Assembly: GCF_003952525.1 (NCBI RefSeq)
Contig: NZ_CP034451.1
Location: forward strand, 5,742,501-5,806,500
Origin: Mesorhizobium sp. M3A.F.Ca.ET.080.04.2.1
Lineage (GTDB): Bacteria > Pseudomonadota > Alphaproteobacteria > Rhizobiales > Rhizobiaceae
Reading direction: 5' to 3'
Length of the DNA stretch: 64,000 nt
Each line of letters begins with the position of its first letter. Within the stretch, counting starts at the first letter, position 1. Below the pieces are notes generated by a model. That model did no database searches. It was given only the letters and a program-made list of their open reading frames with translations, and was not told the DNA's origin. Positions 8,339 through 10,126 of this stretch are shown here, in pieces. The position numbers were made by a program, and so were the translations under genes.

Positions 8339-9484
8339 TCAGCCGTCGCGGAGCTTGACCAGGTCGTTGAGCAGCCCGCCGGTCCCGTTGTGGACCGTCA
8401 GACGCTCGACCTTGCCGGCAATGGCCTCGAGAGCCTCGAGCTCCTTCAGCCGCAGCATCACCGGGTTCTCGGCCATCACCTTGGCCGTGTTGAGCAGCGA
8501 ACGCGTCGCGTTCGTCTCCTCGCGGCGGCGGATGACGTTGGCCTCGGCCTGCTTCTCGGCCGAAACCACCTGGTTGAGGATTTCGCGCATCTCGCCCGGC
8601 AGGATCACGTCCTTGAGAGCGATATCGCTGACCTCGACCCCGATCACGGCCATGTCGGCGCGCACCTTGGCCGCCGCTTCCTCGTCGACCGTGACCTTCT
8701 TGTCGAGGATCTGGTCGAGCGTGAGCGCGCCAAGCGTCTTGCGGAAGGCGTACTGCAGGGCGCGATAGAGGGCCTCGGAGAAGTCCTTCACCGTGCTCAC
8801 CGCCGTCACCGGGTCAACCACCCGGTATTCGGCGGCGATGTTGACGCGGATCGTCACGCGATCCTTGGTCAGCATTTCCTGCCCGGCGACATCAAGCGAC
8901 TGGCGCTTGGTGTCGACGACCTTCACCTGGACCATGCGGCCGACATTCCAGAAGGCGTGCACGCCCGCGGCAAGCGTCCGAACGTAGACACCATCCACGA
9001 ACAGCAGCCCGACCTGGCCGTCCACCACCGGATGCAGGAACACCAGTTCCGTCTTCCGGGCCTGGCCGAGCCGGCGCATGACCGCCGGATCGATCGCAAG
9101 ATCGGACGACGTATCAAGCAGCGTCGCCTTCCACGGCCCGGCATCGGTCCACAGCACGAGCTTGCGGTCCGGCGCCAGAACGGCATGGAGGTTGCCGTCA
9201 CGCTCGATGACGGCGACATCCGCGCGCCCGGTGCGAACGACGGTGAAGTGACGCGCGGCCACGTCCGGGAGCTTGTCGAACAACGCCTTCTCGTAGGCCG
9301 AAACGAATTCCGGATTCTTCAGGTCGTGCCGGGAGACTTCCAGGTTGTGGCGCCGGTTGGCGAGCCAATGTTCGCCCGGCATCAGGACAGCCTGGATTTC
9401 GCCCTTGTAGAGGGCGACGGCACGCTCATTTTCCTTCACGAGGACGCGCTGGCGTCCAAGAATCTTCTCGAGAATGGTCTTCAT
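8339..9484 (-). CDS. Slipin family (SPFH/band 7) protein
   Basis: 381-residue protein of the stomatin/prohibitin/flotillin/HflK superfamily. The start ATG at 9484 has a good AGGAG site nine bases upstream. The N-terminal third ('VLVKENERAVALYKGEIQAVLMPGEHWL') resembles bacterial slipins. The band-7 core is around residues 180-330 ('DVAGQEMLTKDRVTIRVNIAAEYRVVDP', 'IGVEVSDIALKDVILPGEMREILNQVVSAEKQAEANVIRRREET'), followed by a helical oligomerisation segment. No obvious membrane-spanning helix is seen, so membrane binding may be peripheral. It lies downstream of two tRNA-like elements on the same strand. From memory, slipin genes often accompany RtcB RNA-ligase modules, but no rtcB is in this window. 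Confidence 0.9.
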   Translation of the reverse strand: MKTILEKILGRQRVLVKENERAVALYKGEIQAVLMPGEHWLANRRHNLEVSRHDLKNPEFVSAYEKALFDKLPDVAARHFTVVRTGRADVAVIERDGNLHAVLAPDRKLVLWTDAGPWKATLLDTSSDLAIDPAVMRRLGQARKTELVFLHPVVDGQVGLLFVDGVYVRTLAAGVHAFWNVGRMVQVKVVDTKRQSLDVAGQEMLTKDRVTIRVNIAAEYRVVDPVTAVSTVKDFSEALYRALQYAFRKTLGALTLDQILDKKVTVDEEAAAKVRADMAVIGVEVSDIALKDVILPGEMREILNQVVSAEKQAEANVIRRREETNATRSLLNTAKVMAENPVMLRLKELEALEAIAGKVERLTVHNGTGGLLNDLVKLRDG

Positions 9485-9842
9485 TGTCTTCACTCCTGTC
9501 GGGCATGGCCCCATGCGAGGCGTCACGTCATGCGTCGATCATCCTTTCGTTTCTCGTTTCGATCGTCCCTTTCCAGTCCCGGGCACGATTGATCCGGGGA
9601 CCGGTGGCATCGGCGCGAGGCGGGCCTTCGGGAGCGGATCACGGGGCGGCAGGGCGGGCGCCGGAGGCTGAGCCTCCCTTGCCGGCGCTGCCGCGCCTTG
9701 ATCGTCACCGCGGCCTGGCCGCGCGCCGATGGCGCAGGAAATCGCGACCCGGCGAGGCCGAAGCCCTGCCGTCCTTGACGTCCTCGCATTCCGGTCCCCG
9801 GACCGTTTTCCAGATAACACCACCCTAAGGTGTCGCCTTGTC
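9485..9842. other. Intergenic region between tRNA-like elements and slipin gene
   Basis: 358 bases without a convincing gene. Read on the minus strand it holds, in order, a hairpin that overlaps the end of tRNA-like element 1 (9810-9845), a compact GC-rich hairpin with CGGTCC/GGACCG arms (9792-9805), and a GC-rich stretch up to the slipin ribosome-binding site. A 94-codon minus-strand frame (9539-9823) ending in a proline-rich tail is present but lacks a clear ribosome-binding site. I regard the region as transcribed leader or spacer between the RNA elements and slipin. Confidence 0.5.
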
Positions 9843-9845
9843 TGG
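9810..9845 (-). other. Hairpin overlapping the CCA end of tRNA-like element 1
   Basis: On the minus strand CCAGA (9841-9845) pairs with TCTGG (9810-9814), and inside it ACACC pairs with GGTGT, giving an interrupted hairpin of about 36 bases. The first CCA of the stem is the encoded CCA of tRNA-like element 1, so folding of the hairpin and presentation of a free 3' CCA exclude each other in the primary transcript. It could be a processing signal or an attenuator for the downstream slipin gene; this is inference. Confidence 0.5.
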
Positions 9846-9919
9846 CCGTTGGAGAAGGATTCGAACCTTCGACATTCAGATTATGAGTCTGATGCTCTAC
9901 CCAGCTGAGCTATCCGTGT
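9843..9919 (-). ncRNA. tRNA-like element 1 (CAT anticodon loop, encoded CCA, defective acceptor stem)
   Basis: The minus strand folds into most of a tRNA. The D arm is GCTC/GAGC with a GG-containing loop. The anticodon arm is TCAGA/TCTGA with loop CTCATAA, which would read as CAU. There is a five-base variable loop, a T arm GAAGG/CCTTC with loop TTCGAAT, and a discriminator G followed by an encoded CCA. The seven-base acceptor stem should be ACACGGA against TCCAACG, but only the three inner pairs form and the four outer pairs are all mismatches. A working elongator tRNA-Met is therefore unlikely. It stands four nucleotides 3' of tRNA-like element 2 and upstream of slipin. It is either a decayed tRNA or a tRNA mimic; I favour a mimic because of its neighbour. 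Confidence 0.65.
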
Positions 9920-9922
9920 CGT

Positions 9923-9983
9923 GGGTGTGGGAATCGAACCCTGCCTCCGGAGCCAACTCCGGCGCTCTCCATGAGCTACACCC
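9923..9983 (-). ncRNA. tRNA-like element 2 (compact cloverleaf without anticodon loop)
   Basis: 61 nucleotides on the minus strand fold into a complete miniature cloverleaf. The parts are acceptor GGGTGT/ACACCC (six pairs), D-like arm GCTC/GAGC with a five-base loop, middle arm CCGGAG/CTCCGG closed by a TTGG tetraloop, five-base variable region, and T arm GGG/CCC with the conserved loop TTCGATT. All arms pair, yet the seven-base anticodon loop is absent, so it cannot decode. That is what one expects of a selected tRNA mimic, comparable in idea to the tRNA-like domain of bacterial Y RNAs, rather than of a decaying tRNA. No CCA is encoded. Confidence 0.6.
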
Positions 9984-10097
9984 GCAGATCCCAACACCCG
10001 AAACGGCGCCGTACACAGCGCGACAGAGCCGGCTGCGCGGGCGGAGACAAAAGCTCCAACCGCTGTGCTCGCTTCGGTTTTCGTGACCGGGAGCGCG

Positions 10098-10126
10098 CCT
10101 ATAGACCCTGCGACGGGTTGTCGCAA
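10098..10126 (-). promoter_or_regulatory. Candidate sigma-70 type promoter for the tRNA-like/slipin unit
   Basis: On the minus strand TTGCGA (10121-10126) and TATAGG (10098-10103) are separated by exactly 17 bases. Each hexamer matches the consensus at four of six positions. It points at the tRNA-like elements and lies in the gap between them and the histidine phosphatase gene. A transcript starting near 10091 would have about 105 bases of leader before element 2. I looked for a sigma-54 (-24/-12) signature here, as used by some RNA-repair operons, and did not find one. Confidence 0.4.

Follow-up and report, generated by a model that had tools for sequence, protein, structure and literature searches.

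A tandem tRNA-like RNA and slipin unit in Mesorhizobium, an RtcB-less relative of bacterial RNA-repair loci

The DNA considered here is a 64,000-nt stretch of Mesorhizobium sp. M3A.F.Ca.ET.080.04.2.1 (RefSeq assembly GCF_003952525.1, contig NZ_CP034451.1, positions 5,742,501 to 5,806,500), called the window below, whose minus strand carries a compact unit composed of a promoter-like pair, a two-hairpin head domain, two tRNA-like RNAs (RNA1 and RNA2) and the gene for a slipin, a protein of the SPFH/Band-7 type (Table 1). A sequence-only reading made earlier had placed the promoter pair, RNA1, RNA2 and the slipin on the minus strand, and its coordinates match the unit described here; the unit is larger than first noted, since the head domain lies between the promoter and RNA1. 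The promoter pair is present at 10126-10098 and is kept in most upstream regions of the genus, the two folds, four bases apart, both exceed the 29-bit Rfam tRNA cut-off, and the slipin corresponds to the open reading frame 8342-9484 plus its stop codon. As had been claimed, no other evident gene intervenes: the minus strand from promoter to slipin holds open reading frames of 81-94 aa only. The unit belongs with RNA-repair loci, as an RtcB-less relative and not as a full member.

Table 1. Features of the RNA-slipin unit in the window.
Feature	Position	Strand	Basis
Promoter-like pair TTGCGA-N17-TATAGG	10098..10126	(-)	read from sequence
Head domain, two conserved hairpins	10008..10067	(-)	model R2, 60.5 bits (a training row of R2)
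tRNA-like RNA1, 6-nt anticodon loop, shortened allele in own genome	9918..9986	(-)	ARAGORN, Rfam tRNA
tRNA-like RNA2, anticodon CAT, acceptor stem largely unpaired	9845..9919	(-)	Rfam tRNA, model R1
Leader from RNA2 to slipin (~350 nt): small hairpins, then ~300 nt up to AGGAG ribosome-binding site	9485..9844	(-)	
Slipin, stop codon included	8339..9484	(-)	Pfam Band_7, E 7e-30

With the Rfam tRNA model, RNA1 scores 38.7 bits (9920-9985, minus strand) and RNA2 56.4 bits (9851-9915, minus strand). ARAGORN calls RNA1 alone of the two and assigns it a 2-letter anticodon, and our own tRNA-like model, R1, gives RNA2 72.5 bits and leaves RNA1 unmatched at E values up to 0.5. The acceptor stem of RNA2, as read from the letters, pairs at its inner 3 of 7 positions only, and neither RNA has the full set of 7-nt anticodon loop, 7-bp acceptor stem and CCA of a functional tRNA. 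The head is matched by a second model, R2, whose score for the window is that of a sequence which, as L001 (L-numbers denote loci), is one of the 35 training rows of the model; there is one clear copy of the head in the genome, the next R2 match having an E value of 0.46. No Rfam family matched the head in the window, searched at the gathering score, or in 10 related loci, searched to E 0.5. The predicted fold of 9560-10105 has a z score of -4.2, and a generic sigma-70 scan left the promoter pair unscored.

Both RNA elements recur upstream of slipin genes outside the genus. Model R1 was built from an alignment, A2, of 45 sequences, in which 92.9% of cells are paired and 17 of 21 pairs have changed on both sides, with 0 of 500 shuffles as high by any measure; A2 was drawn from tRNA-likes found by ARAGORN, mixing RNA1 and RNA2, which biases the pairing figure upward, and the held-out matches of R1 provide the fairer test. 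Among 84 distinct non-genus loci (85 scanned, taken from our locus list and from further genomes; L104 repeats L049), R1 matches upstream of slipin in 80, including 49 of 53 held out, and two R1 matches occur in 25 of the 85. The misses are L091 and L099, which have at most 260 nt of upstream sequence, L095, where a T-arm alone is matched (E 0.012), and L022, with no match. The R2 alignment of 35 sequences is 93.6% paired, with 14 of 16 pairs changed on both sides, a level that 1 of 500 shuffles reaches (0 of 500 by the other measures), and one G-U pair stands in 35/35 sequences. With an E-value limit of 0.01, R2 matches 73 of the 84 distinct loci, among them 41 of 52 that were held out; L106 was excluded from alignment A4. 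Loci with a tRNA-like or head upstream of slipin span Alpha- and Gammaproteobacteria to Acidobacteria. Six neighbour proteins from the window were compared, at an E-value limit of 1e-10, with the 58 non-genus loci of our locus list, and not one of them recurs there; the list comprises the best 80 of 537 loci, and the remaining 22 of these 80 are from Mesorhizobium. The link between RNA and slipin proposed by the sequence-only reading is thus not accidental, the folds being conserved upstream of orthologous slipins by covariance model, with covariation.

Some loci show variants of this layout. L021:2961-3194, L122:2959-3104 and L127:874-1107 represent one slipin family with long tRNA-like matches, of 116 nt in the first two and 85 nt in the third, and L021 has, by eye, an apparent second tRNA D-arm nested in the anticodon region, preceded by a solitary T-arm. 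A third, armless mini tRNA-like, comprising a T-arm and a short 5' part, seems by eye to follow the last full tRNA-like in L053, L060, L062, L063, L087, L089 and L090.

In a range of bacteria slipins are neighbours of RtcB, for no tested reason that we know of. The head model run alone over 398 Pseudomonadota genomes gave 14 matches, 4 of them within the genus. Downstream of the 10 others lies a slipin in 9 (in the tenth the contig ends), then rtcB in 5, with a slipin-rtcB gap of ~0.1 kb in four of these five and of 0.9 kb in L219. Two of the ten were already known (L217 is L083, a training row, and L225 is L117), and the eight new loci have slipin in seven and rtcB in five. The window slipin is 41-42% identical over ~371 residues to slipins that precede rtcB. 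The same succession of slipin and rtcB is found in L095, L099, L283 and L284, the last two matched by both RNA models; rtcB is more distant in L285, where a weak tRNA-like (25.9 bits) stands alone before the slipin, and lies upstream of the slipin in L102. L282 and L286 have a T-arm-like piece only (E 0.08), and in L282, from Citrobacter, the slipin is flanked by rtcR on one side and on the other by a nucleotidyltransferase of the RlaP 'RNA repair pathway' family. A search with the head leads to slipin and often then to rtcB, and the unit therefore belongs with RtcB-type RNA-repair loci.

Within its own genome (6.17 Mb, one contig) there is no PF01139 match for rtcB and no match for rtcA or TROVE/Rsr; rtcA is found in 0/19 slipin-bearing genomes. 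Among relatives, the genome-wide RtcB search covered the genomes of 33 of the 80 listed loci and was accompanied by tblastn over all loci collected up to that point. The earlier suggestion of an RtcB-less version of an RNA-repair locus fits this outcome: the genome gives no rtcB match, and in relatives the same RNA and slipin stand in front of rtcB. The enterobacterial slipin-RlaP loci L282:3700-4000 and L286:3700-4000 are a further degenerate form: inspection by eye shows a sigma-54-like site followed by a head-like motif and one T-arm. Motifs resembling sigma-54 sites, likewise identified by eye only, precede the head in L282, L283, L284 and L286.

In Mesorhizobium, slipin is present in 87 of 146 genomes, and the window copy is 88-94% identical to those of relatives. 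The upstream regions of 109 loci, after removal of duplicates and of L148 (352 nt upstream), amount to 86 distinct sequences; RNA1 and RNA2 were found in all 86, RNA2 with a TCAGA/TCTGA anticodon stem, and TTGCGA-N17/18-TATAG(G/C) is kept in 82. The unit is followed by acpXL lipid genes in 22/22 listed Mesorhizobium loci and preceded by a histidine-phosphatase gene in 21/22 (in the exception, L041, there is only 1.9 kb of sequence before the slipin). Slipin-less genomes, 14 of the first set of 18, were examined at the acpXL site only. In 10 of the 14 the flanks lie within 177 bp of each other, and two have gaps of 538 and 718 bp; L277 retains 44 residues of a slipin, L274 is not assessable, and none of the 14 stretches, each of 3.3 kb, contains a tRNA-like that ARAGORN detects. 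RNA and slipin are gained and lost together at this site. The genes adjoining the unit in the window (5236-8163, minus strand) encode two ketoacyl synthases and an acyl carrier protein of the acpXL type; genes of this kind provide the very-long-chain fatty acid of lipid A.

In RNA2 the anticodon evolves faster than silent sites. A slipin gene tree was built from 79 of the 86 sequences, the other 7 having no complete, intact frame. On it RNA2 positions 34, 35 and 36 show 28, 25 and 13 changes, compared with a mean of 5.94 at fourfold sites (143 sites, one at 25 or more) and 0 at ten anticodon-stem positions. In 15 independent close pairs, the anticodon sites differ in 11/45 comparisons versus 155/2145 at fourfold sites (P 0.0004), 6/59 at other loop sites and 0/150 in the anticodon stem, and the anticodon as a whole is different in 7 pairs. 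The 86 Mesorhizobium sequences contain 24 RNA2 loops, 23 of them of 7 nt; five of these 23 are identical to a host tRNA loop, where 1.56 would be expected (P 0.006), a count that may be low, with 41 host loops read and Ile and Lys-UUU lacking. Loops equal to host leucine tRNA loops include TTTAGGT and TTCAGGT. Outside the genus, 106 tRNA-like matches reduce to 103 distinct ones with 81 different loops, 85 of the 103 having 7-nt loops with 29 anticodons. Pairing of the anticodon elsewhere in the leader was considered and rejected: no aligned column co-varies with it, and the best complementary triplet fits 5/12 anticodons, mostly via G-U. A partner outside the RNA is therefore likely.

The slipin has 381 residues arranged as three SPFH-type beta repeats, an SPFH domain and a long helix, with a structure model of pLDDT 84.8 and pTM 0.62. 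The repeats are homologous to one another (hhalign probabilities 96.0-97.5, local E 6e-12 to 4e-9), and the protein aligns over 14-348 with MVP, the protein of the eukaryotic vault, with which it shares several beta repeats before the SPFH domain. Vaults have a small partner RNA, and MVP has about nine repeats. Slipin and vault are alike in the succession of beta repeats, SPFH-type domain and long helix, a likeness seen in sequence and model, whereas the slipin has three repeats only. The fold-match search barely covered the model outside 138-364, and the absence of further fold matches is uninformative.

The sequence-only reading had pictured a membrane scaffold, a description that is not supported, there being no evident membrane anchor. 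The highest 19-residue mean hydropathy of the window slipin is 1.38, and no 19-residue stretch with a mean of at least 1.6 occurs in 37 of 40 aligned proteins, among which several distant ones start only at the match and may lack their N-termini. In contrast to stomatin, HflK and QmcA, the slipin is without an evident N-terminal membrane anchor and has two extra beta repeats; it may be peripheral or lipid-anchored. Among NCBIfam models slipins match hflK/hflC only, below cut-off; two slipins matched no PADLOC defence family, and phage records gave no slipin match. L022:429-1972 holds a longer slipin frame (551 aa open) with, by eye, more beta repeats and no tRNA-like upstream; slipins, like vault proteins, may differ in how many repeats they have.

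Published work provides a setting for these RNAs. PMC7790460 reports that operons under RtcR control respond when tRNAs are cleaved in their anticodon loops. What activates RtcR there is the 5' half of a tRNA ending in a cyclic phosphate, and the cuts fall in loops including those of tRNA-Leu(UAG) and tRNA-fMet; the tRNA-like YrlA is proposed there by the authors as a possible competitive nuclease inhibitor. Other papers report a slipin gene among those raised together with rtcB in an Anabaena trcR mutant (PMC10272220), slipin and rtcB named together where an antibiotic may be the cause (PMC9938897), and one SPFH gene within the rtc locus of Pseudomonas aeruginosa (PMC13086221).

Taken with the anticodon data, the published data on tRNA cutting suggest bait or sensor ribonucleoproteins. 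We suggest that the unit would yield a structured RNA made up of the head domain and one or two tRNA mimics, and that this RNA and a soluble, vault-like SPFH protein would form a ribonucleoprotein. The mimics, with a constant body and interchangeable anticodon loops, would be bait or sensor for nucleases whose target is the anticodon loop of tRNAs; the slipin would grip the RNA via the head and gather or shield mimics or fragments. Transcription as one RNA, assembly into a particle, the head as protein-binding site and the bait or sensor role are all what we infer. A ribonucleoprotein that baits or senses anticodon nucleases, as an RtcB-less branch of slipin-type RNA-repair loci, has in our judgement about an even chance of being correct. 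A bolder form is possible and distinctly more tentative: a bacterial mini-vault, in which a soluble SPFH particle displays tRNA mimics whose loops are diversified under selection against anticodon nucleases of phages, rivals or the host, so as to act as a portable, ligase-free decoy or alarm.

Several observations weigh against the bait or sensor proposal. Within the genus a tie to rtcB presence is rejected, rtcB being found in 3/19 unit-positive genomes (one a fragment) and 5/18 unit-negative ones, and the slipin is frameshifted or shortened in several Mesorhizobium genomes. The anticodon loop of RNA1 is 6 nt in 68 of 86 sequences, 8 of the 15 close pairs have the same anticodon, and 18 of the 23 7-nt RNA2 loops have no exact host match, some lacking U33. 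Other RNA2 loop columns are also fast (23 changes in the T-loop, 16 in the D-loop), and many RNA1 columns show 15-22 changes; because these other loop positions are fast as well, anticodon diversity could arise partly from allele exchange between strains. In the account of Salmonella in PMC7790460, no YrlA fragments appeared when an SOS anticodon nuclease acted, which suits an inhibitor better than a substrate.

The alternative that survives best, though we think it improbable, is that of an architectural RNA, in which tRNA-likes and head scaffold or gate a slipin particle, in the manner of Y RNA with Rsr or of vault RNA inside the vault, and anticodon loops drift freely. Drift, however, should not surpass fourfold sites, should not give host-loop matches above chance, and should not retain U33 (55/85), A37 (67/85) and A38 (55/85) beside changing anticodons, as the non-genus 7-nt loops do. 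Somewhat less probable again is a cis-regulatory leader, whose tRNA-likes would be folded, charged, bound or processed (RNase P/Z), setting slipin expression by tRNA state. The tRNA-likes do lie 5' of slipin on the same strand in 80 of the 84 distinct loci, no terminator-like site was found on the minus strand of the window between promoter and slipin, and ACCA forms the last four letters before RNA2 in 68 of 86 Mesorhizobium sequences, as expected of a tRNA 3' end of RNA1. Yet no anticodon-pairing partner was found in the leader, no riboswitch or T-box is among the Rfam matches of the window or the 10 related loci, and such regulation leaves unexplained both the changing anticodons and the distance of mostly 250-600 nt from tRNA-likes to gene. 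It is very improbable that the two are functional tRNA genes, or tRNA pseudogenes in decay, which happen to adjoin slipin: both RNAs exceed the Rfam tRNA cut-off, but the short RNA1 loop, the broken acceptor stem of RNA2 in the window, the retention of stems over phyla with covariation and the lack of tRNA-likes at the 14 slipin-less sites speak against this.

The unit can be set beside systems already described. The rsr-yrlBA-rtcBA operon (Ro60/Rsr, Y RNAs) is alike in having an RNA-binding particle protein and a tRNA-mimicking RNA in an RNA-repair operon, as the part of PMC7790460 on this operon has it, whereas the genome considered here has no TROVE gene. YrlA gave no match in the window at the gathering score, and in related loci its model scores 25-39 bits (best 38.9) against a cut-off of 69, mostly over the RNA1/RNA2 junction. 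The weak YrlA matches in L010, L015, L009 and L020 span the RNA1 T-arm and the RNA2 D-arm. Judged from these sequences, YrlA could have been derived from the junction of two tandem tRNAs.

The closest comparison is with slipin and tRNA-like RNA in RtcB loci, where the SPFH family is the same, a tRNA-like lies in front, and rtcB or RlaP/RtcR adjoins in relatives. Burroughs and Aravind (2016, NAR 44:8525) reportedly described RNA-repair systems in which a novel tRNA-like molecule accompanies SPFH/Band-7 modules, and the earlier reading's remark that it knew of no description of the arrangement is probably too strong. In contrast to such loci, there is neither rtcB nor rtcA in the present genome, the promoter pair is sigma-70-like where several relatives have a sigma-54-like site by eye, and, unless the 2016 work already notes them, there are two tRNA-likes, a head domain and fast-changing anticodons. 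A search of the open-licence literature gave nothing that joins slipin, RtcB and a tRNA-like or SPFH and a tRNA-like, and among the items listed for slipin and tRNA most were, by title, insect mitogenomes. Subject to the content of the 2016 work, we consider four things to be new: the two-hairpin head, the tandem arrangement of the RNAs, the diversification of the anticodons and the reading of the slipin as vault-like.

The unit suggests that, in these RNA-repair loci, slipin and a complex RNA are the core and RtcB an optional extra. Anticodon loops that outpace silent sites on an unchanging body indicate what the RNA presents, and the vault, a large RNA particle of eukaryotes whose function is unclear, can be compared with a bacterial protein through the repeat architecture of the slipin.
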